Shown in pieces: positions 6,524 through 63,830 of a stretch of 64,000 nt of DNA. Source of the DNA: Heterotrichella gracilis (lineage: Eukaryota; Sar; Xanthophyceae; Tribonematales; Xanthonemataceae); the NCBI GenBank assembly GCA_032358255.1, contig JAULBX010027495.1, forward strand, positions 152,349 through 216,348, given 5' to 3'. The notes beneath the pieces were generated by a model. It did no database searches, had not been told where the DNA came from, and was given only the letters and a program-made list of their open reading frames with translations. Numbering within the stretch: the stretch's first letter is position 1; the number at the start of each line of letters is the position of its first letter. A program made the position numbers and the translations under genes.

Positions 6524-9500
6524 TTACCGCTCAGCCACCCCATGCTGGGCGCGCCAGTCCGCCAGAAACCCTTCCACATCCTCCACGCCCTCGGGGATTA
6601 CCCTAGGGTGTTCGCTGCCGCCCTGCGCCAGGTGGCGCGCACACAGCTGCCGGCCCCGCACCCACTGCCCGCACCTGTGCCCCCACGCGGTGATCCCCCT
6701 GCATCGCACTGTCGCACCCCCCTGGGAAAGCCTCTGGCGCCACTTGGTGATGAAACCCTGCAGTGTGGATGGTGGGTGGGTGGTGGATGGTGGCGATGGA
6801 CGATGCAAATGGGTGAGTGCCGGGTGGTGGAAGGGGGTATCGGGGGACAGGAGGAAGCCTCTCTTTACTTCCAGCCCCACGCCCCTTCCTGCCTTGCTTC
6901 CTGCTGGTAGGGCAACACCTACCACCCTGTACATCTACAGTGAAACGGCATTCCAAGCCGAAGACGATTCTTTGGCCTGTGTACCCTCAAGAGGGTTGCC
7001 AATATCCTTGAGGGCTTGCCGGTACCCTTGAGGGGCATGCCCAAAAACCCAATGCATGGTGCACACAAGGGACGCACACCCCTGCCAATGCCTCAATGCC
7101 CTGTATAACACCACAGGCACTGGCACAGGCAGCCACCACAGCATGCACCCACCCTCCCCCCTTTCTCACCTCCACATCCTCCACCCCCTCTGGGATCACC
7201 CTGTCAGTCTGCGCCAGGTGCGTGTGGCGCCAGCACAGCACCCCCGCGCCCTCGCCTTCCTCCCCGCCGCCCCCTCTCACACCCACCCCGCACTGGCGGT
7301 TGGCTGTGGTGATGGCCCGGCAGCGCTGACTGGATCGGGCGGTAATAAGCTGCAGGCAGGGGAAGGAAAAAGGTGAAGTATGAGACGCATGCGGCCAGAT
7401 TAGCGGGGGAAATAAGAAACATCGCACAATGCTATGCACAATGCCTCCCATGTTACAGCTCGTACGCTCATAGTTCGGTGCATTGAACCAGCATGCAACC
7501 CCTTTTGTTGCAAGGGGCTTATAGCCTATGTTTCCAGCTCCCAGCTTTCAGCCTGCCTAGTCCTCCTAGCCTGGATAACAACAGACACATGTGCTCCCCA
7601 CACAATGCCCGGCTGTGGCATGCTATGGGCCCTACCTGTGGCATGACATCCCCAGTGGCAGGTGGTGACACCCCCCCGGCAGCCGCAGCCCCATAGTGGT
7701 TAGTGCACAGCCCATCAGCAGCAGCAACATGGAGGCACCTGGGGGGTGGGTGGGGGGTGAGCGGGTGGAGGAGTCGGGGGCTGGGGAGGACAGAATTTGC
7801 AGGGGAATCATGCGAGTGGCAAGGGGTCTTGACAGCATGCGCGTGTTTAAGCTGGGGTAGCAGGCATCCAGCGTAAGCCCTCAACCCTTAATATTCATCT
7901 CTGACCCCTCTGACCCCCTATCCCCAAACCCCACACCCACCGGTGCCTGCGGGGATGGTGGCAGGGCACAAGGTCTGCAGGAGCAAGCCCAATCCCCAAA
8001 CCCTACACCCTAAATCCTGGACCACAGCGCCCCACCAACCTGATCCCTGCAGAAGCAGTAGCTGAGCACCTGGTTCGCAGGAGCAAACACAAACCCTAAA
8101 CCCTAAAAATGACCCACATTGCCCCACCCACCTGGTGCACGGGAGTAGACCCAAACCCTAAACATTACACCCTGGACCACAGCGCCCCACCCACCTGATG
8201 CCTGCAGGGGTGGTAGCTGAACATCTTGTGCGCGGGAGTGAACCCGAGGCTGTTTTCTGGGCAGCCATGGCGGCCAATAGAGCAGCAGCGGCAAGGGGGT
8301 CATCGGGCAGCATGCGGATCTGGGACGGGGAGGGACAACGGGAGGTCAAGAGGGGCGGACAAAGGTGTAAGGGGAGCGACTGAATGTGGGGAAAGGGGCA
8401 GGACTGCCAGGCGCCAGATGTGCAGGGCTGACTGCCAAACTGGCTATGTTGCTGGAATGCATGTAACTAAGTACCGGGAAGGGCAAGCGCATGCGGATTT
8501 GGGACGGGTTTGTGCAGAAGGGGTACCAGCAAAGCTTCGAGTTTAAGACCCTAGGCACAGGGGATGCGCACGGGGCACTTCAAAATCATGTCACGTTCCC
8601 GCAGTAGAGGTTCAGGCATTGAAAATCCAGGGTTCAGTTATGCTGATTTGGCGCACGCGCACCTATGTCAAGCTCATGCAAAAATGCCTCCTGCACAGCC
8701 TTCCACACCTTGCGGCCTGGTTAGGGTTTAGGGTCTAGGATTTAGGTCAACTGCGCACCTGCGCTGGATTCATGAAGAAGCGCCTCCAGCACAGCTTCCA
8801 GTAGGTGGACAACTGATTAGGGTTTAAATCTAGGTTAAGGTCACAGGGTTTAGGTCAACTGCACACCTGTGCTGGGTTCATATAGAAGTGCCTCCTGCAC
8901 AGCTTCCAGTAGGTGGCGGCCTGGTTATGGTTTAAGTCTAGGGTTTAGGGTCTAGGTTCAGTCCTGCACACCTGCGCCGGGTTCATGAAGAAGTGCCTCC
9001 TGCACAGCTTCCAGTAGGTGGCGGCCTGGTTAGGGTTTGGGGTTTAGGGTTTAGGTCCTGCCTACCTGCGCTGGGTTCATGAAGAAATGCCTTCTACACA
9101 GCTTCCAGTAGGTGGCAGCCTGGCAGCACTGGACGCCCTGCGCGGTGACGGCACGACACCGCTTGGGGGCACGCACGGGGTTGGCGGCCACGCGCGCCGC
9201 CGCCTCCTCTTGGAAGAAGCGCAGCGCCACCGCGGCTGCTTCGGGATCCGTGGGGAGGATGCGCACCTGTACACAAGGGGAGGAAGTACCGTTGACACGG
9301 GTTTTCGGGGAAGGACTGGGGCATGCATGTCAGGCTTCACGGTCCCTGATTTGGGATGGGCGCCTCACAGCTACATATTAGGGTGTGGGGCTCACATGTC
9401 TGGCCAGGATTCGTGCTGTTGACGATTCAAGGTGGGTGCACCTCCCGTGGGTGCATGCGGTGGTGCTTGCCGCACAGCTTAGGAAATACTGTTAAGGCCT

Positions 9501-10781
9501 AGGGTTTAAGGCTACAACTTTGAGGTCAAGATCTAGGGTTACGAGCTAAGGGTTTAGGGCATGCGCACCTCTGCAGGGTTTATGCGGTGGGGCTTCCCGC
9601 ACAGCTTAGGATGTACAGTCAAGGCCTAGGGTTGAAGTCTACAACGTTGAGGTCAAGATCTAGGGTTAAGAGCTAAGGGTTTAGGGCGTGCGCACCTCTG
9701 CAGGGTTCATGCGGTGGTGCTTCCCGCACAGCTTCCAATGCGTTGCTGTGCGTGTGCATTGGACCCCATTGGGATTGACTGCAAGGCATGGCTGGCGTAG
9801 CTTGCGGCGTGGGGCGCGTGGGGTGGGGGGCGGGGGTGGCTTGGTGGATGTTGAGGCTGTGGCTGTGGCTGTGGGGTTGCTGATTTCATCTGAATCCGTG
9901 GTGGGGTGGGATGGTGGCGGGAGCGAGGGTGGCTCTGGCGTGCTCGTAGGGGTTGGACTGGTGGCGGGGCTGGTGGGACTGGTAGGATGGTCCCTGGCAA
10001 TGGAATCAGCACTGGCAGTGGATTGGCCATTGGCAGTGGATAGGCCATTGGCACTGCCCTCACTGACGCCATTTCCCCGGCCGAGGGTGCTGGGAAACCC
10101 TAGGGAAATATCGCCGTTGACAGTAAACCCTAGAGGAGTATCATTGCTGGTACTATTGCTGCTGCTGCCTGCAGCGCCGCTGCCAATGCCACCGCCAGTG
10201 CCCTGCGTTACATCGCTAATGCTTGGCATTGCGCCCCGAAGTTGCTCATGCGATCCGGACATGGCCTCTAGCCCAGCAAAAACAGCCTCTAGCGAGCCAT
10301 CAACTCCCCTGCCTGCTGCCACCTGGCACACTGTCGCAGGTCTGCTGGCGCAGGCTGTCTGATGGGATGCAAACGACCCACCATGGTTTGCATACCCTTG
10401 CGTAGGGTATTGACGGGCCCTGGACCCATTGCCATTTGTGGCGCTTAGAGAGGGGTTGCTGCAGGCGTGGGGGCGCAGTAGCCTCCAGCGGATGCTGCCT
10501 GGCTGTGGCTGTGGCTGTGGCTGTGGCTGTGGCTGTGCCCTGGGGATGGCGTTGCGAGGCACGTGACTGCCATGGCTGCATGGCAGCTGGCGCGTCATGT
10601 GGTGTGTGTGCTCCTGGTTGTGGTGTGTGCTGCTGTGTAAGCGCTTTGCCTCACGGGTTGACGACCTGGAGGCAACAGTGTGGACCTGAGGACCTGGATG
10701 GTGTGCATGGAGGCATGGAGGGTTACAGCCACCCAGGAGTTGTACTGCCATGACAGGGACTACAAACATGTCCGGTCCCAC
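6524..10781 (-). CDS. Protein with five WRC/DUF5763-like CCCH zinc knuckles
   Basis: Transcribed right to left: exons 10781-9696, 9266-9066, 8319-8195, 7738-7636, 7349-7170 and 6757-6524 give 642 residues with consistent phases. Residues 1 to about 320 are low-complexity and rich in Ser, Thr, Pro and Gly, with a QP repeat encoded at about 10500-10541. Five zinc knuckles follow: C332/C342/C352/H355, C399/C409/C419/H422, C462/C472/C482/H485, C515/C525/C544/H547 and C584/C594/C604/H607. Four have exact C-x9-C-x9-C-x2-H spacing; the fourth has a Gly/Glu-rich insert before its last Cys. A motif like VRILPTDPEAAA precedes knuckles 2 and 3, and VIPEGVEDVE follows knuckles 4 and 5. The spacing is close to the WRC domain of plant growth-regulating factors (C-x9-C-x10-C-x2-H) and to the DUF5763-type knuckle of phage and bacterial proteins, but the WRC core Trp-Arg is absent. 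Nucleic-acid binding is only inferred. The start at 10781 is the least certain part. Confidence 0.72.
7940..8262 (-). repeat. Four-copy partial duplication around the third knuckle exon
   Basis: The 3' end of exon 8319-8195 and its donor (…CCTGCAGGCATCAG, then GTGGGTGGGGCGCTG) recur downstream in the same intron at about 8108-8154, 8012-8093 and 7940-7992 with increasing divergence. Telomere-like TTTAGGG motifs lie between the copies. Confidence 0.65.
8655..9113 (-). repeat. Five tandem copies of the second knuckle's 3' exon half
   Basis: Units of about 95-107 bp begin near 8655, 8753, 8860, 8966 and 9061. The rightmost is the real exon end, encoding YWKLCRRHFFMNPAQ. The next two (8966 and 8860) keep acceptor-like AG, an 18-codon open frame and donor GT. 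The one at 8753 has lost the zinc-ligand His (CRRH changed to CWRR). The leftmost has an in-frame stop. Decay therefore increases away from the parental exon. Confidence 0.8.
9437..9738 (-). repeat. Three tandem copies of the first knuckle's 3' exon end
   Basis: The exon end encoding KLCGKHHRMNPAE plus its donor (about 9738-9691) is repeated at about 9610-9562 (one His replaced by Pro) and 9482-9437 (zinc ligands intact). Spacing is close to 128 bp and the intervening sequence carries AAACCCTA-type motifs. Confidence 0.75.
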
Positions 10782-11857: not shown

Positions 11858-14800
11858 ATGGGCGTGCGTACCGGTAGACAGGCAGCGGAGGGCAGCTGGC
11901 ATGACCACATGCAGGCATTCACAGTGACATGCATCCTGGCCATGATCCTTGCCTTGGCCCAGAGCGCCTCAACCACGGTGGTCCTCCCCAACGTCACCTC
12001 TTCTGGATATATACCCATCAACCATACGGAGGGCAGTGCTATGTTCTACGTGTATTACGAAGCTGGTGAGGTGGATGTGGGAGACACCACACCCATCGTG
12101 CTGTGGCTGCAGGTATGCATGCAAGCCAGTTTTGGCCGTATATAACCCGCTGCGTAGGCTGTGTTGTAGTTGTGCTCGTTCTTGTGTCCCCATCCCTCCC
12201 GTATACGTGGCCCCCTTGACCCTACCCAAGCCACCATGCCCAGGCAATGAGTGCATTTCATGGACCTGAAAGCAAGCAAGCAAGCACCTTAAAACGTGAT
12301 GTAGATATTGGTTCAGTACAACTGCAGCTGAACAACCATCATGAAACCCCTGCTGACAGGACTGTAAACTGTGCGTAACCCTAAACCCTGGCCCCACCTT
12401 TCCACCCACGAACCCTAGTAGGACCCTACTCTATCCTATAACCCTTGTGAAACCCTACCATGACCTGCTTCTGCACGCCGCTGCAGGGCGGCCCTGGCTG
12501 CGCCAGCATGTTTGGCAACCTGTATGAGCTGGGACCCCAAAGGGTTTCTGCCAACCTGACCCTAAACCCTAACAAGGGGTCCTGGAACCGGGCAGCGGGT
12601 CTGCTGTTCATCGACCAGCCAGTGGGCACAGGCTTCAGCCCGGAAGGTAGGGTTTCACCTAGGGTTTCAGCTTAGAAGGTAGGGTTTCCTGGGGTTCATC
12701 GACCAGCCGTTGGGCACATGGTTCAGCGGGAGGTAGGGTTTTACCTTGGGGTTCAGCCAGAGGTAGGGTTTCAGCCCGTCAGACGGGCTCCACACAGGCA
12801 CACCCTGAGCAGGTCATCTTATTATTTTATAAACACCCTCATCTATCCCCATGTGGTTTTATACATGTATCCTATAGGGTGTCACCTGGTATGATGGCTT
12901 CTGACCTGGGTACCCCGAGCCCTCAATCATACGCCCTAACCCTTACAGCTGAACCCTGAACCCTGTACCAACCCTGTTGTAGGGACGGGGCGCATCCCTG
13001 ATGACGAGATGCAGATGGCCGCTGACCTGTACACCGGCCTGCAAGGGTTTTTCAGGGAGCACGAAACCCTAGCGCCCCGCCCGCTGTTCATCACCGGCGA
13101 GAGCTACGCAGGGAAGTACATCCCCTCTATAGGTGAACACGCATAGGACCCCTTGGGAGATGTTGGAAAGATTTTCGAATGCATCCCCTCTCCTCCCCCT
13201 ACTACCCCTGGGTGATGTCTATATAGCAGCCGGATAGCGCCACCTATATATTTTCTCTCCCCCAAAGGGGCCTTCTTCCTGATGTTCACCATACATGTGA
13301 TTCCTCCCCTGCACCAGGCCATTTCATATTGCAGCTCGAGGCGGCGGCTGGCAGGAGGAACACGCACATGGCGCACTCCAGGCGACTCCCCCTTGGCTTC
13401 GATCCCCAGCCCCCCTTGTTCAATCTCCAGGGCTTGGCGATTGGGAATGGCCTCACAGACCCGATCAACCAGGTGCGGCAAACCCTGCATTTTTAAATTC
13501 AAACCTTTGGTTGGCATGCAACCGAGCAGTTTCAGGCACCAAGGTGGCGATACATGCCCTGCAGGGTACACATGTGTTTCTTTTAGAATTTATTTATGCT
13601 CCCCAAGGGGTCCTGCACTCCACACCCTACCACATCGTGCCATGTGTCCCCACATGCGTAAGAAAAATATAAATCATTATTAGGTGACAACGAATGTTGC
13701 ATACCAGCTCTTCCAATAATTTTTCATATGCAACTGAAACCCTCAATCTTTCGCATTGCTGTTCAGGTTGCGACCAATGCCGATGCAGCATACTTCCACG
13801 GCCTCATCGGTCCCCTGCAGCGCCTGTGGGCAATGCAGCACCAGCTGGAAATACAGCAGCTCATCGCGGCAGGTGGGGAGGATGACGGGGGTGTGCATTA
13901 GGGTTTTGATGGGGTGAGGGTTAGGGTTTAGGGACATGACAGAGCGGGGTTTGGGTTATGCATTTGGGGGCTTCTTTCTATTCCAACTGCACTTCAACAC
14001 TACCTTTGTAGCACAACTCAATGTATCAGTAGGGTTCAAATTCGATGCACGCGCCGGCCATACTCTGTGGAGCATGTAAGGGTGTGGCCCATAAGAATAC
14101 CCTGGTTGGACCCTGCCGTAGGGTTTTGGGAGCAAGCGCACATTGAGCGCAGCCAGCTGCTCAAGTTCATCATTGAGAACAGCGCCATTGCCACACCATT
14201 TGACATACGACGGGCGGCCGACTATGACTCCACCCTGGCAGTGGACCGCTACCTCAACCAACCAGAGGTCAAGGTGGGTGCAGGCGGCTGTGTGGGGGTG
14301 AGGGGGTAATGTGCATGTGCATGTGCCGTTGCGGCGTGTCCGCACAATCGTTGTAAAGAGTACAAGGGAACGTTCATGAGGAGGGGGTTGCACACACCCT
14401 TGACGTACAACGGGCGGCTGAATTGCTACCTCAACCCACTAGAGGTCAAGGTGGGTGCAGGAGGCGGTGGGGGCAGGGGTGGGCGCTATCAACATGAACA
14501 AATCAGGGGATCAGGGAGAGATGAAAAGTTGATGCCAAACCAAGAGGATTCATCTTTGCATCTCTCCCTGCGTGGTGAAATCACCCCCCACCACCCTCCG
14601 TTTATAATTGTGCCCCTGTGGCCGCAGGAGTACCTTGGCGTGCCTCATTCCATCACGTTTGAGGGGTGCAGCGAGCGGGTGGGGCGCGTGCTTGGCCCTG
14701 ATGTGATGAAGAGTGTGGAGTACCTGGTGCCGGACCTGCTGGCGGCATACCCAATGCTGCTCTACCAAGGTGGGCGAGGCTGCTAGGGTGTAGGGTACAG

Positions 14801-16384: not shown

Positions 16385-20981
<4,597 letters not shown>

Positions 20982-21813: not shown

Positions 21814-23307
21814 ATGCGGCGCGCCGCTTATTGTTTGCCGCGCTTGTTCACAGCAGCACGTGGTCCTGTCCTCAGAAACCCTGTAGCATCGTTCTCGCGC
21901 GCGATGGCGGGAAATAGCGTACCATCGATTGACGAGCTGAAAGGGATGTCGTGCGTGGGGATGTGCAGCAAGTAAGGCACCGCATGTCACGTGGTGTCGG
22001 TGGGAACCACGGCGAGAAGCATGGCATGCATTGGGTGTATTTGTGTATGCATGCAACTGCAGCTTCCAGTCCAATGCCCTGAAACTTTCTAGCCCCGTGC
22101 TATCCTTGTCCCCCCCCCCTGCGTCCCTTGCCTTCCCCAGAATCACCCGAAACCCTCTCTGCGTCCACTCTCTTTACCATCACCCACCCACCCTCCAGTG
22201 CACTACCCCCAGCACCCCCACACCTCCTGGGGCCCCTTCACACTCCCACTCTCTGGCCTGGGCACTGTCAATCCCCCATCGACCCCATGCATCCCCATGC
22301 CTTTAAGAGGAGATTACAGTCCTAGGCTGACAATCTCCTCCCCTATTTCCCCAGGGACACCCCCGCTATCCCACCTGCCGAGCTGGCCACCGCACTTGAG
22401 TCGCTCCCCTTGTGGCGGTTGAGCGATGACAAGAAGTCGATCACCAGGGAGTTTGTGGCAAAGAACTTTGTTGCAGGTAGGAGCTGCTGCCACGTGATGG
22501 CTGCAAGCTTGAGCAACGTACACACCTAGGGATTGCATGTGTCCCTTAGTGTGGGTGTGGGTGTTTGGTCAGGGTGAAGTTGCCCAAAGCATGTCAGGAA
22601 TATTTCTTAACATCCCTTCATATTTTTCATTAAAATCTTATTTCATTTTTTCTCGGCGTTCCATTTTTTGTGTTTTGCTTATACGTTCTCTTCCTCCTGT
22701 CTTGCAGCCATTGACTTCTTCACCCGCGTGCGTGACCTTGCGGAGGCCGAGGCACACCACCCAGACCTGCACCTCACAAGGTGGGACGCATGGGTCATGG
22801 CACCGTGGTTTCCATACGTGCGATCTGTGAATTAGAAGCATGTTGCAGATCTTTGCAGCTCCTGGCAAGCTGAACCAGCATCATACATGATGTGCATAAA
22901 CATGACTAGCCTTGCATGCAGTGAGCCACCCAGCAGCTTGTAGGGCTTGAAAATAGCATTATGAAAAATACTGTCATGCAGTATATCCTACAGTACCCAC
23001 CCCATGAGAACAGGTGGACCAAGTCATGCACGCCACGCCTGCACACTGTTGTGTACCCCGCTGCATCCTCACCTGCTGCAGTGCTTGCCACTCGCACAAT
23101 GCACCTAACATGCTGTGCAGCGCCTGAGACATGTTCCCCCGGCTCCCCAGCTATCGCCACGTGGCGGTGACCTTGTCCACCCATGCCATTGGTGCGCTGG
23201 CGCTGCCCGACCTCATCCTGGCTGCAAAGCTGGATGGGCTGGCGGTGGAGTACAGCCCAAAGTGGCTGCGGGAGCACCCAGAGGCGCAGCACCCACACCA
23301 GTCATGA
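21814..23307 (+). CDS. Pterin-4a-carbinolamine dehydratase, probably mitochondrial
   Basis: Exons 21814-21971, 22355-22476, 22708-22780 and 23151-23307 give 169 residues. The catalytic motif of the family is complete: EAEAHHP, then six residues to Tyr, nine to His and eight to Asp (E-x3-H-H-P-x6-Y-x9-H-x8-D), spanning exons 3 and 4. The enzyme dehydrates 4a-hydroxytetrahydropterins. Plant homologues are organellar and linked to pterin recycling and molybdenum-cofactor function. The chosen start at 21814 gives MRRAAYCLPRLFTAARGPVLR, an Arg-rich amphipathic presequence. An in-frame Met at 21904 would give a cytosolic form. A degraded copy of the last exon lies about 150 bp after the stop. Confidence 0.88.
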
Positions 23308-23470
23308 AAGTCTGGATCAGATCCTGGGGAGCAGTTGGGAGTCCATTGGGCGCAGCGTGCTGCCATGCGGCATGCGCCGCGCCATGGATGGCGTGCGCGG
23401 GCGCTGCGTAATCATCGACAACCATGACATGGTGGGCCACCAGGCGGCAAACTCAGCTCAGCTAGTAGGG

Positions 23471-23475
23471 TGTAA
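23471..23475 (+). terminator. Possible TGTAA poly(A) signal of PCD gene
   Basis: TGTAA 164 bases after the stop, at the start of the duplicated segment. Confidence 0.35.
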
Positions 23476-23550
23476 ATGGATGGGCTAGCAGTCCACAGGA
23501 GGCACCTGAGTATAGGCCCAGGTGGCTGTGGGAACACCCACAGGCACATA
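23471..23550 (+). repeat. Degraded copy of PCD last exon
   Basis: GGATGGGCTAGCAGTCCACA and CCCAGGTGGCTGTGGGAACA, followed by CCCACAGGCACA, match the exon segment at 23229-23295. The reading frame is broken. It lies in the 3' flank, so it is a duplication remnant, not an intron event. Confidence 0.75.
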
Positions 23551-24555: not shown

Positions 24556-25703
24556 TCACACCCCGAATGACTTCCCGCACCCGCACGTGGACTCGGCATT
24601 AGGGTTCTGGAACTGGAACCCGCCCCCGATGAGCGCGTCGCTGAAGTCCAGCTCCAGCCCAAACAGGTACAGCAACGACTTTGGGTCGCACACCAGGCGG
24701 AACTGGCCCTGGTAGCTCATCACGCTGTCGTCTGGGCCCACATTGGCCTCCTGCTCAAAGTCCATCACGTAGCTCATGCCGGAGCAGCCGCCTGCGGGGG
24801 AAAATGAGGGTTGCGGCCGTAAGGTTTTAGGGTTTAGGAGGGCGGCATGTTGAGTTGCGTTCAGTAGCCGCCTGCGGGGGAAAGCTAGAGTTTTAGGATT
24901 CAGGGTCCAGGATCTCGGGGTGCGAGAGAGCAGGCCGCGTTGTGGCCTCAAGTTAAAAGTTGAACGGGCTTGCTAGGGTTAAAGGACACCGCCCCAGTAA
25001 CTTCACCTGACTTACATCCCATGCACAGCTGCAGGTTGTCCCCTGCCTCCTCCCAACAGGAAAGCAAATATTCTCTAGGGCTGGAGGGTGCTACTCAAAG
25101 GTTTGCTAGGGTTACGGTCAGCAACTTGCGGACTACCACCAGGGTTTCTTACCTGATTTGACCCCCACGCGCAGCAGCAGGTTATCCCCAGCCACCTCCC
25201 CGCGCAGCTTGTGCAGGTGCGCGAGGGCTCGGTCGGTGATGGTGATGGCGGGCGGGGGCGGGGCAGTGGGGGCCGCGACGGCGGCTGCACACCCACAAAT
25301 TATGGGTCAGGCGGTGCATGCGGGGGGGTGCAGCGGCCATGAGTATGGGACTTAGGCGCATATATAGCGAGGCTATACCTATTCGCGACATTTAAGCATA
25401 TGTCCTAGCTTGCATATGCACGAAGTTGGGACAGCTACACAACCCTGATTGCTGTGACCTAGGCAGGCAGGCAGCATGTGCCGATGGCATCAATGCATGG
25501 TTACCGATTCCAGAGTTCCCAGCCCTACCTTCAGCAGTGCAGGTGGTGAGTACCCTGGCGTGCCTGGCCGGTGGCGCCTGCCGCCGGGCGAGGGCTCTGG
25601 TGTGTGTGTAGGGCCTGCAGCGCTGGGGCTGTGTGGCAGGGGCGGGGGCCCTAGAGGCTGTGCAGGGCTGGCTGCGAGCCGATGCTACCATGGAGAAGCT
25701 CAT
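24556..25703 (-). CDS. Plastid A-type iron-sulfur carrier (SufA/IscA family)
   Basis: Exons 25703-25529, 25284-25153 and 24791-24556 give 180 residues. The first 58 are rich in Arg, Ala, Pro, Ser and Thr with a single acidic residue, a plastid transit peptide. The HesB/IscA core follows: [47 protein letters not shown] and [11 protein letters not shown]. The three conserved cysteines are present (Cys105 in GGCSG, Cys172 and Cys174 in CGCG). Their spacing is about three residues longer than in E. coli IscA. The protein should receive or pass on Fe-S clusters, probably in the stroma with the SUF machinery. Fragments of exon edges are copied in both introns (24862-24892 and 25008-25062). Confidence 0.9.
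24862..25065 (-). repeat. Exon-edge copies in Fe-S carrier intron 2
   Basis: Within one intron are a copy of the downstream acceptor (CCCCCGCAGGCGGCT, at about 24892-24865) and a degenerate copy of the upstream exon end and donor (about 25062-25010, CTGCAGGTTGTCCCCTGCC on the plus strand against CAGCAGGTTATCCCCAGCC in the exon). Both junctions of one intron were duplicated inward. Confidence 0.65.
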
Positions 25704-34332: not shown

Positions 34333-34371
34333 AGATTTTCGGAATCTTCGGAATCTGGGGTTGGAGTTGGC

Positions 34372-34376
34372 TGTAA
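34372..34376 (+). terminator. TGTAA poly(A) signal of Nup50 gene
   Basis: TGTAA 40 bases after the Nup50 stop codon. Confidence 0.5.
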
Positions 34377-35484
34377 TGGGAGTGGGGATTGGCTGTTGTG
34401 GCGGTGGGGGTTGGCTGCAGGGCCATTGGGGATTGGTTGCACTGCTAGAGGACTGGAAACTGGCAATTGCAGCATTGATTGTGTTGGGGTGGTGTTGATG
34501 AAATTTGCGTCAAGAGTCAAAGGTGCCGGGATTGATTGCACTGCCGACGGGGAAGCATTGTTGTTGTTACTGACCTATAGCGTGACGTTGCTCTGTACCA
34601 GTTGCCCTCATTCCCTATTGGTGTGATTCAGAAGGGGGATGGAAGCTAGGATGGACCATGCACCAGGTGGATACAGTTGGTTTGAGATGGGGAGTGAAGC
34701 CTCGGAGGAGTCCTTAGGATAGCTAGGCTACTGTAGCGTCACCACCTGCTTCACGCCTGACACTAGTGTGGTCCACACAGTAATGCGGGACAATCATTGA
34801 CTGCGTTCAACGCAACTTGCGCATTGGTATGAATTGTGCACGGCCTGCCATCACATGCGAGCCATACATTTCAACTGATTGGTGCTATACAGCCTTACAC
34901 GTGCTTTGAGCAGAGTTTGTAACATCACTGCTTATACCGTATTTGTGACTGATGTCCCAGCCAGTCATGGATGATACCCATGCCACTCGCCCTTGCAGGC
35001 ACAGCCGACTTGGAATGGCCTTGAAGGCCGCCTGATGATCCTGATTCAGAAGCTGTTTCACCAGTACACTACTTTTAAAAAGCTTTTAAAACTAGTGTGT
35101 TGTAGTAGTACTGTAACAGCTTTGCACCCCCTTGCGATATTCGTTGAACCTTGGAAAAGCAAAATAGAAGACAAAAAACGGCACGACTGCCCCAAACACA
35201 TGTGGGCAGCGACCACATTCAAATTGATTGAATATGAGCGACCCAGTGTTGACGCTCAGCTTCCTGAGCAATCACACGCTGCAGGGCCCAACCGCCTGAC
35301 AATGTTGGCCAGCATGCCTGCCACGCTGTTTCGTACCACTGAAATGAATGAAAGTAATACTTCTATGTTCCACGCACTCTCAGCAACTGGGCCTGGCAGC
35401 GGCTGCAGGGCCTGGTCCCGGACCAGCCCGGTTAAGTGATGATCATGCATGGCCATGCCCTACTGCTGATCCAGCTAGCCACTA

Positions 35485-43633: not shown

Positions 43634-46600
43634 ATGCTTTGTACTTCCTTATGTCCCTGCTATGTGCATATGCATGCATATGCACCGGGTGCGCCACCCT
43701 CCCCTCCCCTGCCTGCCTTGTTGTTGTGTGGTGAAAGCTTTTCAGTGGCTCAAAGAAACCTTCTTCACAACAAGCTCGTTGGGCATCGCGGACTACCTGT
43801 ATGCCCCCACACACCCGTGTTCATGCTCCACGCCTAGTTGTAGACGACCAAAACCCTTTCATACCCCATACCCCATACCCCAATTGTTTAGGTGCGGGTT
43901 GTGCCTGCTTCCAGTCAGGTGTTGTATACCTCCCCTGAATGTTTACACTGGTGGTCCACCCCCCTTGCTGCAGAAACTGAAGATGCTGCACGACGAAGCA
44001 GTGGTGCGCTTCGACAAGGTGGGGATCCCTGAACCCTTAACGCTAAACCCTGAAATGCATGCCACCGCGCCGGGTGCATTAGCATCGCATGGATGGTGAT
44101 TGAGCGGTCCCATGTATAAAACACAATCACATCCACATGGGCATGTCCCCGCCTCGAGTTCCTTAGCACGCACGATTGCGCAGCCAGTCCCATGCAAACC
44201 CCATGCCGAGCCGGATGCCATGGCACGCATGATTGTGTGATAACCCTGCCCCGAGTGCATCGCCACCCAAGGCGTGATAATATTTCATGCATTCAATTAA
44301 ATGTAAATTAATAGTCACCAGCAAAACATGCCGCCTGTGCCAACTCCATGCCATGCATGGGCCATGGTCTGCAACAGCTGTAACCCTTCCATTTTTTGTT
44401 GCTGAATCGTCAGGTGCATTGTACGCAATTCCGAATGGCATGTAATCCACTGGGTGCCCAAAATTGCATCTTTTGGCAAATTAACATAATAATGATGAAA
44501 CGCCCGCTGCCCAAGAAGAGAGTAATGGTCATGTGCAAAATTCGACATCCATGTGATTTGGCGCCCCTTGCCTCCCTCCTCATTACCTTGCAACATGGCC
44601 TGTGCCCCCCCTTCAGATCCTGGATGTGTTCAACGCGGTGGAGCGCCTGCACCCCTTTGGCGCTGACGACTTGCGCAAGGCCATCAAAATGGAGAAGGGG
44701 AGGTTTGCCATACGAATCGCAAGGGGCAAGCTACTGGTGCCGCACAAGGTGAGTACTATTCCTTGCATATGGGGGGAAGGGAGGGAATTCAAATTGAGAA
44801 AAGCATGTATTATTACAGTGGAATGGAGATTTTGCCTTCGGGGTTGCAAGGGGCAAGCTTGTACAACGCCACAGCACAAGGTGGTGCCCTGCCATGCAAT
44901 CCCCGAGCCCCACACCACCCCCATTGCTCCCATCCACCCGCCAACAACCCCCCCACCCCCCACCCACCCCTTGCAGGTGGATGTGGCTGAGCTGCTGACC
45001 CGCCTGCCGCTGCACCTACTCGCATGCCTGTTGGGACACCACCCACAGACGGGACCAGGGGGGGAAACGGTGAGGTGGCGAGGGGGGTGGGAGGGGAGGA
45101 TTGCAGGACGGTTTTCAACACAACCAGGTGGAATTTAAAGTCCCTCGCTGGGAGGACCATGTCTGCAAAATTTCCATGTGCATGCTTATTCACACCACAT
45201 GCCCATCCAGGCACACCACATGCCACATATGTACCACCACCACACGCGCACTTCTGCAAAGCCCCTTCAGATCACCTGCCAATTCTTAATCAGACCAGAC
45301 CATTCTTCCAACAGGAGTTGACCAACAACCCCCTCCCCTGCCGATCCCCACTGATCCACCTGTCCCGGGGACTGCACCTGACAGCTGACCTGAGCACATG
45401 GGTGCGCTGGGGGGCGCATGCGCAAATATGGGGGGAGCCAGGGGGACAGGTAAACCTCTAAAACCCTGCAAACCCTGAATCCTTATAACCCACGCACAGA
45501 TCTGGGGGGCACATGCGCACATATGGGGGGAGCTGGGAAGGGCAGAAGAATTCAAAACCCCAAACACCTGTGAAGCTTGGTAACCCATTCTGTACTTATA
45601 AAACAGAAAAATAAATCACAAATACTGGTATTTGCCTTTTGAGCCCGCATCAATGATGAGGGTTCAAGTTCACAGCACTTCGCTGTACCCTAACTCAAGG
45701 TTTTCCACCCTCACAGGCTGAGGCCACCTTCCTCACCCAGCTTATTGAGCTAGTCACCATGACCCTGCTATCAGTCTTGGGGCCAATGGCACAGCCCTCC
45801 CTGGCTGCCGCATCCACCCCCCCCCACCCCACCACCTCCACCACCGCCGCCCCACCACATGGGTCGGGACACATCGCTGCCTCGCACGTGGTGTCGGGGG
45901 CACCAGGGGGGGCGCTGCCTGCGGACTGGTATCACGGGGGGGACGTGGCGATGGATGTGGCTGCGCTGGTGCCGGCTGCGCTGCACGCCCTGCAAGAGGG
46001 GCTGCTGGGGGGGGAGGAGGCGGAGGAGGGAGGTGCGGGGGTTGGTGTGTGGGCACAGGTTCCAGCTTTAAATACTATAGCCAGGTTAGAACCGCCAGTA
46101 TGCCACACCCCATTGCAAGGGGCAAAACGTTTCCAACCACCTTTTCCATGGCAGGTTATGGCCATGCATTCGGGTTGCTTGTAATGGGGTAAGCCCATTT
46201 CAACCCCTGTTCATTCCTTGAACATTCCCACCTTGTCTACCCTCCTGTGGACAGAAGAACAGAACAACCTCTGCAGTGGGCATTAATACCCTTTTCCACT
46301 TTTGCTGCAGCGGGGCCTGATTACACGCCCTTCTCCCCCCCCATCCTGCGCCACCCCTTCGCCCCACACCTCCTGGACGCCCTCTTTGACGCACCCCGCC
46401 ACCTGTACCAAATGACACTGGCGGCCATGATGGCGCCCTCCCCTGCCCCGAGTGACAAGCCCCCCCTGGCGGTGCATTTGTCCTACTCTGCGGGGGTGTC
46501 GTTAGACCCCCTGGCCCGCCTCTGCGCCGACCCAGTCTTCTACAATGGGTAAGGGTTTAAAGGTTTCTAGGGTAAGGGTAAGGGTTTTATGTTCTTGAGG

Positions 46601-49600
46601 CAAGGGTATTATTGGATCCCTGTTTAAAGTTTCTGCGCTGATAAGTCTTCTACAAGGGACAAGGGTTTTTAGCAGAGGCAAGGGGTCTCTAGTCCAACAG
46701 CTTGACCAAATTCCCAACATTCACAAAGCCGCAAGTCGTGTCCAGCTAATTCTCCTTACGTCCCCAATTCCTCCCCAGTTTGCTCCTCCACGATCGATCC
46801 GGATCAGCCCCCTTGCGCCTCATCCTGTCGGGGCTGCAGCTGCACTCCGCCCCCTTCGCCCCCCCTCCATTCAACCCCCTGAACGAGGACGCAGCAGCAG
46901 ACATGGAGGTGGATGGCAAGCAAGGTGAGGGGGGAGGATGGGGGATTGGATGGGGAGGGAAAGTGGCCGCTGGTTTGGAGTAATCAGATTTAGATCATTG
47001 TGTCACCAGCAACTGATTGTTTGGTGTCGGTATGTCAAATATCAGTGTCATCTCTACAGTCGAGCCTTGGATGCATGGTGGTTCTGTCCTAAACCCTTAA
47101 TTTTTAGCTCTTAACCCGTTAGGCAACCACCATTGCACTGCATGGTTAGCCTTGCCGCATATCCAAGTCCCTCCCGTACCTCACCCCGCTTTCCCCCAGC
47201 CCCGTCCTCCCCCTGCCCCTATAGGCACCCCACCCCCCACAACCTCCGGCGGCGCCCTTTTCACCCCGGTCGCCTCCCCTTCCTCCCACTGCACTTCACC
47301 CCTTGGAGGGGCAGCAGAACTGCTGGCAGCCCGAAGCTGTGCCCTATTGTGTACCCTATGTGAGCATGAGGCACCCGACTTCCTGGATAGCGCTGTGGTG
47401 GAGGATGGCACTCGAGAGGTGGCGGGGAGGGTAGCGGACCAGGTGTTTGCGCACCTGGGCCTGGTGCTGCAACGGTAGGGTTTGGGGTTTGGAGCTAGCT
47501 GTAACGCTAGACTAGCTATGCTAATGCTAGTCTAGCTATGGTCATGGCCTGCCGTTAAAAAGTTGAGGCGAAGGTAATGATGTGGGTTGGCGCGGCATAA
47601 ACAGTGGGTGTCAGCAAAGGATCAAGGTAAACGTTGAGTGGCTCAATTGCAGGCTTGTTGGAACGTCGGATTTGGCAAGGAAGCTGCTCTTTGCTTGAAC
47701 AGGACCGATTGAGCTCCCAACTTGATCATCACCCACTATCCATCCCTATTCCACCCGCATTCTCCATGCACACCCTCCCCACAATCCGGCCCCCCTCTCC
47801 ACCTCTCTGTGCGCCTGCGAGGGCCAGCTGGGGGTCAAATTTTGGACACTATCACTGCCCCCACCATGGGGCATACAAACATCAATTTCCCCCCCTTGCA
47901 GGCCCTCCCTTTCCACCTCCCCCCTGTGCCCATTCGAGGGCCAGCTGGGGGTTAACCTCATGCGCGCTGCCGAGGTGCTGTGTGACGACTTAAACTTCAG
48001 GATACAGGGCATGCGGCGCCTGGCGGAGCCAGTAGCGGAGGCGCTGGCGGCGGAGGAGGGGGCGTTCAGGTCGCGCTGGTGTGCAGGTGGGTGGTGGTGG
48101 TGGGTGGTGGTCGTGGTGGTGGTGGTGGTAATGATGGTGGTGATGGTGGTGGTGGTGAACTTGCTGGTGAAATGACTCCAAATCAGGGTGAGGGGTATGG
48201 CGGAGCCGCTGGCAGAGGTGCTGGCGGTGAAGGTGGGGGCGTTCAGGGCGTGTGCAGGTGGGTGGTGGTGGTGGTGGTGGTGGTGGTGGTGGTGGTGGTG
48301 TATCCTAAGTAGGGCTTTGCTGGTGCGATGACTCACATGCAGGAATGGGGGGTATGCGGCACTGGCGGGGCAGCAATTGGAAGCAGGTGTGTGTGTGTGT
48401 GTGGACTGTGCTGATGTGCAGATTGGTGGTGGTGCTGGAGTACAAAGCCTGACCCCTTTTCCTCCCCGTTGCAGGTGACGCCGCCGTTGCCACCCACCTT
48501 GCAGACCCAGTGCGGGTTGGTGTGCCCTTCCCTGGCGCAGCCTGTGAACGCCACCATCTGCAGCAGGCAGCCGAGGTGATGACAGCTGGCAGGGGGGGCG
48601 ATGCAAGTGCGGGGAGGGGACCAGGTGCGAGCAAATGGGGGGTAGGAATCAAGTAGGGCGGGAATGCAAGCTCGCAGCACCATGCCTCGAACAAGTTAAT
48701 ATAAGAATAAGATTTATGTTGAGTACCCGCCGCGGCTTGAATAACCCTTGGGCAACACCGCTGGGACAGGGGCAGCATCCCTGCAGCGGAGGCGTGCAGA
48801 GCAAATGCGGACAATCTCCCATTGTGCAAGTTCTTTCCATCCCCACCCCGTTGCCCATCATCTCAGCATGTGCCCATCCCCATCCCCGTTGTTTTCTCAG
48901 GGGGAGCAGCACCAAAGGGCCAGCAGGGGAGGGTGGCACGAGCCCTGGCCCTAGAGGATAGCCTGTTACTGTTCAAGGTCCTGGGCAATTTGCACTTCTA
49001 TCACCTGGACAAATGTCCAGAGGAGTCGCAGGTGGGTGGTGGTGGTGGTGGTCTGCGGTTGTGGTGCCTAAGCCTGGACAGTGCACCCTAACCCTAAACC
49101 TTGGTCAGTGTAGTCCATGCCACCCCTTGTTGCTCAAGGTGCTGGACAACTTGCACTTTTACCACCTGAATAATTGCCCACAGGATGCGCATGTTTGTGG
49201 TGGGGATGGTGGATTTTCTCCAACCAGTGTCAGGCTAATTCAACCCATACCAGGGGAAACACAGCCATGCACTCTTGTACTGCCCGCTGCCAGATGCCAT
49301 TGCCACATCCACTGCATGTGTGGATGTGGGTGGGTGTGTCCCCGACCCATTGGACGCCCCTGACCCTTCCCTCTCCTACCCAATACCCCCACTTGCCACC
49401 CATCCACTTCTGTGCAACCCAATTTCCACCCCAGAACTGGCCCCCCTTTCCCGCAGAACCTGTTCCTGTCACTGCTGCACGACCACCTGCAGCGCTTGGG
49501 CCCAGGCGCGATGGACAGGGCGAGAGCGAACCTGCGGCAGCTGGCGGCGTTCCTGGGGCCGCTGGCACCGCAGGCACGTGGCCGCCACAAACCCTACACT

Positions 49601-57998: not shown

Positions 57999-60133
57999 TC
58001 ACACCTCGCTCCCCTCCGGCGATCGGGGGGTGCCCGCCAGCGCCTCCACATCGGTGCCCCGCTGCATGGGCGACTGCTCAACCACCCCTCCCGACCGATT
58101 GCTCACGTTCCCCTGGCTCAGCGCACCCCCCCCAAGCAGCGACATGCGCTCCCCCGCATCCGCGCCCCCCCCATTCCCCCCGATCCCATTACCCCCCCCT
58201 GCCAGGGGGTCGAAATCGTCCAGCACCTCCTGATCGGCGATGGCCTCCCGGATGTATTTTCGGGAAATGACTGTCGTGTACATGACCACCACCAGCAGCA
58301 GCACTGCTGACACGGCCACCATGAGGGTGGAGGTGGCCTGGCCGCGGGAGGGGGCGTGGAAGATGTCGGCAACCTGGGGGAGGGGTGGGAGTGGGGCCGG
58401 TGAGGTGGGAGGAGGTATCACCTTACATTTGCAATAAACAAAGGCCGTGGTGTACAGCAAAGGGGTTGTGCATAAAATGTATATTTGTGCATCCCCCCCA
58501 AAAATGGTATCCCCCTGCCATGCGCCCTCCTGTCCCACGCAAGCGCCGCCAGGTCCCCACCAACCGTCCCCACCGCCGCGCCCCCCCCGCACCCCCCCTT
58601 CTGCACACCGACCCCATTCACACTTAATCCTCACATTGTGCCGAGCGACCCACATACACCCTGCCACGGCGCAGCGATGTGCACAACTGGGAACCCTTGC
58701 CACATCCACCCCTAGACCCCTAACCCCACCCCTCGAATCGCACCCTTTGGGTGCCCTGGACCCACCTTTCTAACCCACCTTTTGCGCCAGCGAGCCCACG
58801 TACACAAACATGGCCAGCCAGGGCAGCACCGACAGGCAGGAGGCCCACGTGTAGGACAGCAGCGGCACCGCGGTCAGCGACAGCAGGTAGTTGAGCACGT
58901 TCCAGGGCACCAGGGGCGACAGGCGCAGCAGCAGGATGAGCTTCCAGCCCTCGCGCTCCAGCGCCTTGTCCACCGCCGCCCAGTGCGGGAAGCGGCGCTG
59001 CGTGATGTGGACCATGATGTCGCGCAGCAGGTACCTGGGGGCAGTTGAGGGTCATGATTGGATGGCTATTTAGATGGAAATTTGGGTGCAGGATTTGGTG
59101 CATTTCCTCGTGCAGGCCCTAATGTCCATGCCAAAACCCTGCCCCATCCCCAAAAATCCTGCCCCATCACAACAAACTACCCAGGATGCCGCGCAGCAGA
59201 TACATGGGGCCACTTAGCATTCATGGTTGGATGACTCCTTGGGTGCAAAGCCGGGTGCAAGATCTGGTGGATTTCCTCGTGCAGGCCCTGATATCCACTC
59301 CAAACCCTATCCTGTCCCTCAAAAGCCCTGCCATCCTATCCCCAACTCTGACCCCACCCCCGTACCTCCCCATGACAAACGCCAGCGTCTGGCCCACAGT
59401 GGTTGCTACCCAGGTGATGAGCAAGCCCTTCACAATGCCAAACAGCGCCCCCGCAGCCATGGACATCACCGATGCCGGAAACGCCAGGATCACGCCCACC
59501 ACGTACAGCCCTGCAAATGCGGCGGCACCCTGCACGCAACAGGAGTGGGGTTGAGGGTGGGAGTGGGGATGAGGGGGTGTCAGTGGCTGCATATGGTGCC
59601 TCAAGAGTGTGATTTCCAGGTGACAAGGAGGTCAGGGTGTATGGTCGGAAGAAGTGTGTGTGTTGCGCAAAGGTGTGTGCAAGAAAACCACTCATATATA
59701 GCTGGCTGTAAGTGGCGAAGATCCAATATAACGAAAGGCTACTGCTACAGCCCCCAGCCCCCGTTTGAAATGCACTGCTGCTGGTGAGTACCCACAGCCA
59801 CAGCCAGAGCCAGAGCCACAACTGCAGCCGCATGCCAAAATAAGCCTGTACTGCTGGGTTGCAACCACCCATCCCCACCCCCGCAGCCAGCACCACAGCC
59901 CCCACCTGCACTTTATTCTCCTGCACCCACTCCAGCAGCCCCTCCACACGCGTGGCGTCCATGACCAGCGCCGCCAGCACCACCACCCCCAGCAGGCTGC
60001 CCGCCAGCACCAGCCGGGGCACCCCGCACACCGCCACCACCTCCTGGCCCTGGCGCGACATGGCGCGCACCGACTTGAGGGGGGTTTTGATGGAGAAGAG
60101 GGGGGAGGAGGGGCCCGAGTCCTGGTGGGACAT
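57999..60133 (-). CDS. VTT/SNARE-associated (TVP38/TMEM64-like) membrane protein
   Basis: Exons 60133-59906, 59529-59366, 59034-58779 and 58373-57999 give 340 residues. A hydrophilic N terminus (MSHQDSGPSS) leads into a membrane segment (LVLAGSLLGVVVLAALVMD). The VTT core follows: FAGLYVVGVILAFPASVMSM, AAGALFGIVKGLLITWVATT, LLLRLSPLVPWNVLNYLLSL and WASCLSVLPWLAMFVYVGSL. A last membrane segment (AVSAVLLLVVVMYTTVIS) precedes a Gly/Ser-rich soluble tail. FPxS-GALFG and RLSPLVPWNVLNYL are hallmark blocks of the family, whose members include TVP38 and TMEM41/VMP1-related lipid scramblases of the ER and Golgi. Its exact role here is unknown. Exon 3's acceptor region is duplicated upstream in the intron. 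Confidence 0.87.
59030..59335 (-). repeat. Duplicated VTT exon 3 acceptor region
   Basis: The block from GCGCAGCAGGTACCTGGGGG through GGATTTCCTCGTGCAGGCCC-like sequence (59021-59120) recurs at about 59193-59290 (GCGCAGCAGATACATGGGGC … GGATTTCCTCGTGCAGGCCC). Unit length is about 165 bp and includes the first exon codons and the intron. Confidence 0.85.
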
Positions 60134-61500: not shown

Positions 61501-63638
61501 ATGGCTATGATGGTAAGTCCCCTATGCTGTTGCTTTTGCACTCTGGCGTTGTAATCACCTCGAGTGGTATTGACATCCACCCATCAATGACGCTTGCTCT
61601 GCCTGAAGATTTGAACACACTTGTTTGAAACCGGTGTCCCTTCCTGTGCTGCAGCAACCGCAAATCATTCTTTTGAAAGAGGGCACAGACGACAGCCAGG
61701 GGAAGCCGCAGCTGATCAGCAACATCAACGCATGCGTGGCAGTGTCTGAAGCTGTACGGACCACTCTGGGCCCTCGGGGGATGGACAAACTGCTCCACAC
61801 CAACCAGGTATTTCCCATATGCATGCTTCCCTCCTGTCAACTTCTTAGTCACTAAATTATCCTCAACCTTGCTTATTGCATAGAAAAGCATACAGCTGGT
61901 CCTGTGGCACTCCTGTGTGGTGAGTCATCACCATATATACTTCTTGAACTCCCAGTGTGCATCTACCACCCAGCACCCAACCGATGCACAGCCACAACTG
62001 GGTATGCTGGTGAGGAACCCAACATGTTTTCTTCCCCTTTCCTGCTCTGGACTCCCCTGAAGCAAGCCCTGCTGCGCCCTTAGGGTGTGACCATCAGCAA
62101 CGACGGCGCCACTATCATGCGGCTGCTGGATATCGTGCACCCCGCCGCCAAGACGCTGTGCGACATCTCATTGTCGCAAGATGCAGAGGTAAGCTTCCCC
62201 ACTCCTTCCACTGCACATACCTAGCACACCTTGCAAGCACAGGCCCCATATCACCCCAAGGGGATGAGCATGAGCTGGCATTGGAGGTGGCAACCCATTC
62301 CTCTGGCATCCTACGGGGTCGCACAGAAGAGGCTTTGGGTTCAAGCTCGGGAACAGGTGGCTACCGCGACGCAGGGTACCTTGTGCGCCAGGGTTCAGGT
62401 CCCGACACCCAACCACTCGTCCATCTCTCGCCTTCATGGGGGCTTGAGCCTCCAGGGTGTACGGTGTAGGGTATTCATTTATAAGGGTTTTATAGGGTTT
62501 TCACCCCCCATTTCTCCTGCTTTATTTCAGGTGGGCGATGGCACCACCACCGTGGTCATCCTGGCGGGGGAGCTGCTGCGCGAGGCGAAACCATTCGTGG
62601 AGGAGGGCGTGCACCCACAGGTGGGGGCGGGGTGGGGAAGCTGGCGCATGGGGGGCGCTTGTCTTGCAAAATAACGCTTGGCATGTGGGGAGGAAGGGTG
62701 GATGCAGCACGCACGCGCATGGACACAGTTTAATATACTGTGTACATATACATTATGTGGCATGCGTAGAGTAATAGGCACAGAGTTTTACAATTTGGTA
62801 TGCACAGATTTGGTACAAAATAGCCCACAGCGTTGAGCGCTAAATGCATTTTACATGGCATGCATAGGGCGCTGTACGCACACATTACATGGAATGCACA
62901 GAAGACTGCACACAAACCGCATGGGATGCCAACATGGCATTTGAGATGCACAGAGGCATTTGGATGCACACCTTGGCCAAAACTCACATGCGCCTCTTTC
63001 CCCCTCCCCTGCAGAGCCTGATCAAGTCCTACCGCACCGCCGGCGAGCTGGCTGTGCAGCACGTGAAGGAGCTTGCCACCAGCATCGCTGACAAGAGCGA
63101 GGAGGAGAAGCGGGACATGCTCAAGAAGTGCGCAATCACAACGCTCTCCTCAAAGCTGGTGCGCACCTTTGACCCGAAACCCTAAACCCTACATCCTACA
63201 CGCATGGCTGTGTGTGGTTGCGGGGTTGGGAAAGTGCTTATGCGATAAAGCAACCTAAAGCACCAGCACCGCGTAGGCATGCAAGGATATGAGGCGGAAG
63301 TGCACAATCAGTAGGCTGTCCCCACGCCCTAAACGCCACGGCCCCAATCCCTTGAATTTGTCCCCTTCCTCCAGGTGTCTGGTGAGAAGGAGTTCTTCGC
63401 CGACATGGTGGTGGACGCGGTGTCCTATTTGGACCCCTCCACCTTGGACCTGCGCATGATTGGCATGAAGAAGGTGCAGGGGGGCGGCCTGCGCGAGAGC
63501 TTCCTAGTGCATGGCGTGGCCTTCAAGAAGACCTTCAGCTATGCAGGGTTTGAGATGCAGCCCAAGTCGTACGCCTCGCCCAAGGTGCTGCTGCTCAACA
63601 TTGAGCTGGAGCTCAAGGCGGAGAAGGAGAACGCAGAG
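61501..63638 (+). CDS. CCT7: Chaperonin CCT subunit eta, 5' part (runs off the window)
   Basis: Exons 61501-61512, 61655-61807, 62084-62188, 62531-62620, 63015-63158 and 63375-63638 encode the first 256 residues. The N terminus [20 protein letters not shown] is diagnostic for eta. Group II chaperonin motifs follow: [28 protein letters not shown] (nucleotide and Mg binding) and [19 protein letters not shown], specific to eta. The subunit is part of the eight-member cytosolic TRiC ring that folds actin, tubulin and WD proteins. The first coding exon is only 12 bases. The exon ending at 63638 has a donor, and the rest of the gene (about 300 residues) must lie beyond 64000. A decayed copy of this exon's end lies at 63735-63825. 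Confidence 0.93.
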
Positions 63639-63734
63639 GTGAGTGGAGGGTTCACATCAAAACCCTAAAACCATGAACCCTATACCCCAGACATAATTTT
63701 GTGGGAGGTGTGTATCAAGGGAATAGGGGTTTGA

Positions 63735-63830
63735 ATTGCTGCACAAGTCCTACGCCAGACCTGAGGTGCTTGCTGCTCGTAATTCAGCTGCAGCTCAAGG
63801 TTGAGAACGATCAGAATGCAAAGGTCCATG
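63735..63830 (+). repeat. Decayed copy of CCT7 exon 6 end
   Basis: CACAAGTCCTACGCCAGACC, then TGAGGTGCTTGCTGCT and CAGCTGCAGCTCAAGG, matches CCCAAGTCGTACGCCTCGCC, then CAAGGTGCTGCTGCT and GAGCTGGAGCTCAAGG in the exon. The frame is broken. Confidence 0.8.

Follow-up and report, generated by a model that had tools for sequence, protein, structure and literature searches.

Direct copies of exon edges and telomere-like DNA in the introns of the alga Heterotrichella gracilis

INTRODUCTION

How introns are gained and how they change in length is a long-standing question for which few recent cases are available for study. Here, we analyze a 64,000-nucleotide stretch of the Heterotrichella gracilis genome (GenBank assembly GCA_032358255.1, contig JAULBX010027495.1, positions 152,349 to 216,348, forward strand; here referred to as the window), in which exon edges recur, together with their splice sites, inside the adjoining introns. 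A first-pass annotation, made from the sequence alone, had described such copies in ten named genes as tandem duplications across splice junctions and proposed that they are a property of the genome and may be a mechanism of intron growth and a source of new exons. We ask how widespread these copies are, how they might arise, and what becomes of them.

RESULTS

Direct repeats in the window and in other contigs

The window (C498:152349-216348 of the 68.5-Mb, 903-contig draft assembly) was compared with 25 further stretches on other contigs, which were picked by number and not at random. Two of these, C1:20001-30000 (L003) and C180:20001-30000 (L007), were excluded because of their GC content of 0.36 to 0.38 and long uninterrupted open reading frames (ORFs); L003 reads as bacterial, with ORFs resembling L-aspartate oxidase and aldehyde dehydrogenase (named by eye). 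Both contigs are probably bacterial, from Bacteroidota, judging by the ORFs as read for L003 and by GC content and ORF length for L007. The remaining sample, the window and 23 stretches, comprises 283 kb, or 0.4% of the genome.

We carried out a strict count of direct repeats lying 30 to 500 bp apart and scoring at least 50 bits, with low-complexity pairs excluded and one dinucleotide shuffle per sequence as the control. The count covered the window and 22 stretches, among which L003 and L007 gave zero pairs each; L025 to L027 lie outside it. There were 98 direct pairs compared to 2 inverted pairs and none in the shuffles. The window alone contributed 27 direct pairs, and its shuffled counterpart contributed 0. 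At the main threshold of at least 45 bits, applied to all 26 sequences, we obtained 127 pairs in 84 clusters, again with zero in L003 and L007. As 62 of these clusters lie in other contigs and 22 in the window, the pattern belongs to the genome rather than to particular genes, as originally suggested. Cluster density is uneven, and no cluster was found in six of the other 23 stretches (L005, L009, L012, L020, L023, and L024). The smallest spacing per cluster ranges from 80 to 198 bp (10th to 90th percentile) with a median of 120 bp, compared to the 85 to 165 bp given in the first-pass annotation. The spacing of junction copies is bimodal, at 100 to 120 and 180 to 220 bp. Divergence within the best pair of a cluster runs from 2 to 30% across the 84 clusters.

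Repeats are concentrated at predicted splice junctions

Splice junctions were predicted by a gene finder self-trained on the sample, which returned 81 models and 401 introns, with a median intron of 292 bp and a median exon of 147 bp. The repeated block spans a predicted junction in 61 of the 84 clusters, 53 of them with a high-confidence exon and 8 with low confidence. Of the remaining clusters, 5 have exon sequence copied into an intron but no junction, 3 lie in exons only, 6 are mixed, 6 lie in introns only, and 3 are purely intergenic. Within the window, 16 of 22 clusters span a predicted junction, and the 17th is that of CCT7, where the gene model ends at the donor.

For the junction test, we compared the 53 junction clusters with the 6 intron-only and 3 intergenic clusters (62 in all), leaving out the 22 clusters of other classes. 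Under the null, a segment as long as the spacing is placed at random, and exon-internal placements are discarded as lethal. The observed junction share was 53/62 (85%), compared to an expected 0.30 to 0.37, or 0.47 to 0.54 if junction pairs stay visible twice as long with one copy constrained (P = 3e-19 to 2e-7, with clusters treated as independent). Earlier nulls had used the aligned block length; because true segments may exceed aligned blocks, they were redone with the spacing as segment length, and the excess persisted. Wholly noncoding clusters number 9 of 84, while noncoding DNA takes 49% of random placements. Among pairs with block identity of at least 88%, a subset biased toward exon-rich blocks, 23 of 25 span a junction (P = 2e-10 to 6e-5).

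A copy of the intron's own edge is carried by 53 of the 401 introns. These own-intron copies derive from 30 donors and 26 acceptors; the donor and acceptor sides are thus affected alike. Donor-side copies lie downstream of the donor and acceptor-side copies lie upstream of the acceptor, just as the first-pass annotation had described.

Structure of the copies

The exon part of the copies measures 22 to 109 nucleotides (nt). In 7 of the 18 pairs whose exon parts are at least 0.90 identical (here called young pairs), the copied block takes up 80% or more of the spacing. The same is true of 8 of the 38 other pairs, where decay could hide it in older ones. In a comparison of flanks, the similarity on the intron side lies above the 95th percentile of cross-pairs in 33 of 63 pairs, and several young pairs have none. 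Plain tandem duplication, the proposed origin, is in keeping with the direct orientation of the copies and with the junction crossing of most of them, but it accounts for only part of the cases. Two spacers were searched against the genome, among them that of the Nup50-like acceptor at 33963, and each was found once, so that no source elsewhere was detected at the sensitivity of the search; the other spacers are unsearched.

The copies do not, as a rule, bound new introns: a donor on one copy and an acceptor on the other were found in the best pair of only 1 of the 84 clusters, and that one resembles a gene-finder error. We also considered whether copies end at the splice consensus, which was first suggested by a junction-anchored profile and by a subset chosen by whole-block identity, in which 10 of 14 pairs include no more than 12 nt of intron (3.0 expected). 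That selection is biased because intron-rich blocks score lower. When pairs were chosen by exon-part identity instead, such short intron parts were found in 10 of 22 pairs at identities of at least 0.88 (3.7 expected), in 7 of 18 at 0.90 or more (2.8 expected), and in 3 of 9 at 0.93 or more (1.2 expected; reached in 459 of 5,000 simulations), with a median intron part of 104 nt in the last group. The first impression was thus largely an effect of selection, and what is left hints only weakly that some copies end at the splice site.

Telomere-like DNA in introns

The introns have a further component that is new relative to the first-pass annotation. Telomeric 7-mers (14 exact words) occur at 10.5 per kb in introns, 1.3 per kb in exons, and 3.3 per kb in intergenic DNA, which is an 8-fold enrichment of introns over exons and a 3-fold enrichment over intergenic DNA. 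Introns hold 1,420 such words, compared to 95 to 240 for each of the 19 other necklaces (circular words) of the same composition. The words peak at intron ends; they also rise again 160 to 200 bp from the donor. In the last fifth of introns, beside acceptors, 28 words are G-rich and 219 are C-rich, a scarcity of G-rich words that selection on the acceptor region can explain. Telomeric words are present in 41 of the 53 copy-bearing introns compared to 143 of the 348 others, and they cover 6.2% of the sequence inside repeat clusters and 1.5% outside (L003 and L007 included).

Across the genome, the plant-type telomeric repeat (TTTAGGG)3 occurs 834 times (overlaps counted) and its reversed control 0 times; most of the 100 places listed lie well inside contigs. 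This repeat type, the abundance of introns in the genes, and the gene content would be in keeping with a green alga. A telomerase RNA-binding domain (PF12009) was found on contig C626 (54.9 and 41.2 bits). By majority of words, the donor-side fillers comprise 11 G-rich, 9 C-rich, and 9 without a majority, and the acceptor-side fillers comprise 1, 9, and 16, respectively (Fisher P = 0.024). Extension by telomerase makes a sharper prediction on position inside the filler, with G-rich words beside the upstream copy and C-rich words beside the downstream copy; here the trend was weak.

Other arrangements of telomere-like sequence were also seen. The inverted pair AAACCCT-N0..12-AGGGTTT occurs 893 times in the genome compared to 370 times in the opposite order, and inverted telomeric pairs in the sample (6-base arms, spacers of 0 to 15) favor a 5-nt spacer (9 of 22). 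In L027, positions 2631 to 2996 form an intron-only tandem array with telomere-like DNA, which is interrupted in the assembly by a run of N.

Copies decay as expected without constraint

In 86 partly overlapping comparisons of exon and copy, the changed codons include 208 synonymous and 251 nonsynonymous changes, 11 of the latter being stops. The synonymous share of 45.3% is close to the 44.5% that our own arithmetic gives for one constrained and one free lineage (neutral random single changes give 28.6%), and the stops match an expectation of about 10.7. A gap that breaks the frame occurs in 12 of the 86 comparisons. Purifying selection on the copies is thus not supported by these 459 changed codons. 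At copied splice sites, 28 of 33 donor copies still have GT and 26 of 30 acceptor copies still have AG, which is about the level of free decay by our own estimate. Copied sites with an intact dinucleotide score lower than the real sites (5.9 versus 6.8 and 5.3 versus 6.2). In the 24 pairs with more than 20 nt of intron copied, the exon part is 87.0% identical and the intron part is 79.4% identical, as expected for two drifting lineages in the intron and one in the exon.

The codon changes and the decay of splice sites indicate that the outer copy is the gene, while the inner copy decays freely. In the ABC transporter gene, the outer copy keeps the homologue-supported protein across the junctions at 38281, 38892, and 39802, and in CCT7 it does so up to the donor. 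In a hexosaminidase-like gene of stretch L011 (named by eye), the outer copy retains the motif MGGDEV, which we take to be catalytic, and the inner copies are frameshifted or carry a D-to-N change. As the copies evolve neutrally, they are relics and not spare exons, and the suggestion that they may serve as a source of new exons is not supported.

DISCUSSION

We consider it somewhat probable that these repeats result from duplication during break repair, with telomeric or other filler, and are tolerated through splicing. Short direct duplications, spaced by about 80 to 215 bp, would arise recurrently in genes of the nuclear genome, most likely when DNA breaks whose single-strand ends overlap are repaired. 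The two overhangs would be filled in before rejoining, in some cases with an insertion of telomere-like or other filler, and fill-in duplication combined with telomeric insertion would give the order X - filler - X that is observed. A duplication inside an exon would be purged, and one that crosses a junction would be harmless because splicing removes the inner copy; the outer copy, on the body of the exon, would keep coding while the inner copy decays. Introns would thereby lengthen at their ends as exon-edge copies and telomere-like DNA are added. The copies themselves, their direct orientation, the symmetry between donor and acceptor sides, the excess at predicted junctions, the neutral decay, and the telomeric enrichment are observed; break repair, fill-in, and telomerase or telomeric filler are those steps that we infer.

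Several observations weigh against this explanation. In 11 of the 18 young pairs, the copied block fills less than 80% of the spacing and the rest is unrelated sequence; together with the single occurrence of the searched spacers, this requires an added filler. Exact telomeric words form no majority in 25 of 55 fillers, of the 20 donor-side fillers in which one orientation prevails 9 are C-rich, and the trend predicted for telomerase is weak (P = 0.048 overall and 0.24 for donors alone, with words that are not independent). Telomeric words are found, too, at intron ends where no copy is visible. Copy-bearing introns exceed the others in length (413 versus 280 bp), in agreement with the suggested role in intron growth, but this is no proof of it, since longer introns have more room for copies. 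The junctions are predictions of a self-trained gene finder that calls some copies exons. Finally, neutral filtering alone fails to yield the junction excess, so that a preference must be added. Either duplications that start in exons or a hot spot at junctions would explain it.

The latter option can be put more strongly, in that splice junctions might be hot spots of telomere-linked break repair: a break at the end of an intron would be closed with telomeric repeats and leave an exon-edge copy, so that in this lineage introns would be largely built and lengthened in this way. We regard this as doubtful. If true, it would be a genome-wide mechanism of intron growth tied to splice-site DNA or to cotranscriptional processing. 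A similarly tentative possibility is that duplications begin preferentially in exons or exon edges, which might be GC-rich, nucleosome-bound, or stressed by transcription, and that the exon-internal ones die while those at junctions remain. An exonic start fits the scarcity of intron-only and intergenic pairs, as well as the similar numbers of copies on donor and acceptor sides; exon-only survivors, on which it might be tested, amount to just 3 clusters. Plain replication slippage or unequal exchange everywhere seems unlikely as the explanation; in that case the junction pattern would come from purifying selection and the longer persistence of pairs with exon sequence alone. It would account for the 7 of 18 young pairs that are fully tandem and for the faster decay of the intron part, which it leads one to expect; however, the junction share exceeds expectation even with twofold visibility, wholly noncoding clusters are far scarcer than under random placement, and the unrelated spacers of the other young pairs are left over.

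The remaining alternatives carry much less weight. That the copies are functional, as alternative exons or decoy splice sites under selection, is very improbable: many still resemble exon edges and most retain GT or AG, but that retention is near the neutral estimate, intact sites score below real ones, and the synonymous share, the stops, and the frame-breaking gaps are those of neutral decay. We give even less credence to introner-like mobile elements that insert near junctions and duplicate target DNA. Direct repeats do flank an unrelated spacer in part of the cases, but both of the searched spacers are single in the genome, and the exon part of the copies is longer than the usual target duplications, which are far shorter than 22 to 109 nt. 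An assembly artifact, through collapsed or misjoined alleles, is the least credible. Although the draft has many contigs, including bacterial-looking ones, the divergence within best pairs and the single occurrence of the two tested spacers make misassembly unlikely; moreover, 17 of 23 other stretches contain such pairs, which are in phase with splice junctions and show a coding-versus-neutral pattern of substitutions.

Related systems are known, and the last two described here are precedents for the favored break-repair explanation. In the potato RdRp gene (Ma et al. 2016; PMC4974935), a tandem genomic duplication across an intron-exon boundary, carrying the splice site and exon edge as here, gave rise to a new spliced intron. 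The potato case is one locus with a new intron, whereas H. gracilis has dozens of loci in 283 kb, mostly with one copy inside an existing intron and with telomere-like DNA. The Rogers model and its Drosophila cases (PMC2891723) likewise involve a short tandem duplication, of coding sequence with a proto-splice site, that is partly spliced out; there, the copies bound the new intron, an arrangement seen here in the single best pair that is a likely gene-finder error. Interstitial telomeric sequences are inserted at double-strand breaks in mammals, a minority with target duplication (PMC2246262 and PMC7215372), and target duplication alone is given for 3/66 horse, 6/130 rodent, and 4/25 primate loci. 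These, too, are short internal telomeric arrays, and 31% of the human ones lie in introns, compatible with random insertion; in H. gracilis, by contrast, introns have three times the intergenic density, the words peak at intron ends, and duplications are frequent. Fill-in of complementary 3' overhangs by CST-Pol alpha(-primase), the telomere C-strand machinery, produces small tandem duplications (Schimmel 2021; PMC8355091), which resemble ours in being short direct duplications at breaks made by machinery shared with telomeres. That work concerns induced breaks in human and mouse cells, and the parts of it covered draw no link to splice junctions or telomeric filler. Among titles and abstract openings, with subscription journals little covered, we found no report of genome-wide exon-edge copies or of telomere-rich introns in an alga. 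A single boundary-crossing duplication is thus known from potato (PMC4974935), while a pervasive, telomere-coupled case was not found in the literature searched.

The copies span a range of ages in a compact genome, and the telomere signature suggests a repair pathway. This makes it possible to count and test how introns grow, from which mutations, and how splicing tolerates the growth. The copies are also a warning for gene annotators because they resemble exons: our own gene finder called copies as exons in the ABC transporter, the GH20 gene of L011, and the carboxypeptidase (14461-14478).

LOCI OF THE WINDOW

Of the ten genes in which copies had been described, eight have copies at 45 bits or more: the zinc-knuckle gene, carboxypeptidase, oxygenase, Nup50, ABC transporter, the unrecognized gene or genes at 43.5 to 53.9 kb, VTT, and CCT7. 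The PCD and Fe-S genes have only the weaker pairs listed in Table 1.

TABLE 1 Exon-edge copies and related direct repeats in the window (window coordinates)
Locus	Positions	Strand	Description
Zinc-knuckle gene, donor 8194/8195	7955..8260	-	Pair 8150-8238 / 7995-8083 downstream, plus partial copy; TTTAGGG-like DNA between
Zinc-knuckle gene, donor 9065/9066	8652..9123	-	Five-unit array (real exon edge counted), 94-108 bp spacing
Zinc-knuckle gene, donor 9695/9696	9438..9734	-	Tandem units (127 bp) made up of exon edge, donor, and the telomere-like beginning of the intron
Carboxypeptidase, donor 12646	12606..12772	+	Copy 88 bp downstream; GTAGGGTTT filler
Carboxypeptidase, donor 14273	14248..14473	+	Copy 177 bp downstream, where the gene finder put an 18-bp exon (14461-14478)
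Oxygenase (JmjC/NO66-like), acceptor 18504	18483..18724	-	Two upstream copies, spacing 81 and 91 bp
Oxygenase (JmjC/NO66-like), acceptor 19413	19376..19542	-	Copy 92 bp upstream
PCD gene	23248..23548	+	Weak pair, 39 bits, last-exon sequence and downstream copy; below main threshold
Fe-S carrier gene	25005..25200	-	Weak pair, 42 bits, exon edge 25153; below main threshold
Nup50-like gene, acceptor 32237	32077..32301	+	Upstream copy at 158 bp, including only 3 nt of intron
Nup50-like gene, acceptor 33963	33774..34019	+	Upstream copy at 187 bp, including 3 nt of intron; 91% identity in exon part
Direct repeat without predicted exon	35472..35699		Noncoding example
ABC transporter (ABCB6-like)	36542..36858	-	Three units, 120-126 bp
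ABC transporter, donor 38281	38062..38369	-	Copy 213 bp downstream
ABC transporter, donor 38892	38672..38950	-	Copies at 117 bp; telomere-like filler
ABC transporter, acceptor 39802	39739..40094	-	About three tandem units, 120 bp
Direct repeat	40419..40571		Wholly within predicted intron
Unrecognized gene	45407..45533	+	Exon piece copied into next intron, 95 bp
Unrecognized gene, acceptor 47901	47788..47955	+	Copy 113 bp upstream
Unrecognized gene	48021..48300	+	Exon edge, donor, and (GGT)n copied 177 bp downstream
Unrecognized gene, donor 49031	48970..49212	+	Copy 161 bp downstream
VTT-domain gene, acceptor 59034	59012..59332	-	Copy 169 bp upstream
CCT7	63546..63825	+	Exon end 63638 (KAEKENAE), donor GTGAGT; copy 181 bp downstream

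Pfam searches with ten of the window's models gave scores above the cut-offs for those of the carboxypeptidase, JmjC oxygenase, PCD, Fe-S protein, ABC transporter, VTT, and CCT; the Nup50-like model had a subthreshold match to an FG-nucleoporin family, and neither the zinc-knuckle model nor one small model had a match. In the five-unit zinc-knuckle array, CCCTAAA-like DNA lies between the units, and GT follows all five (by eye). The ABC transporter model aligns along ABCB6 except for 17 residues (595-611) left unaligned between two aligned parts, and it is here that two of the three units at 36542..36858, miscalled as small exons, fall; another insertion, of 8 residues, is not accounted for by copies. 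The CCT7 model aligns with the CCT-eta chains of the Protein Data Bank (PDB) to the last residue before donor 63638, with one 1-residue gap elsewhere.

Repeats of other kinds are also present in the window. An inverted repeat with 43-nt arms lies at 52740-52887, and the strict count holds one inverted pair for the window. A dispersed 75-bp repeat occurs at 50575-50648 and 54420-54491 (84% identical, 3.8 kb apart). A repeat-rich gene model at 1227-5032 encodes K-A-G-E repeats (LEA-like by eye) and contains 33-bp tandem repeats within an exon.

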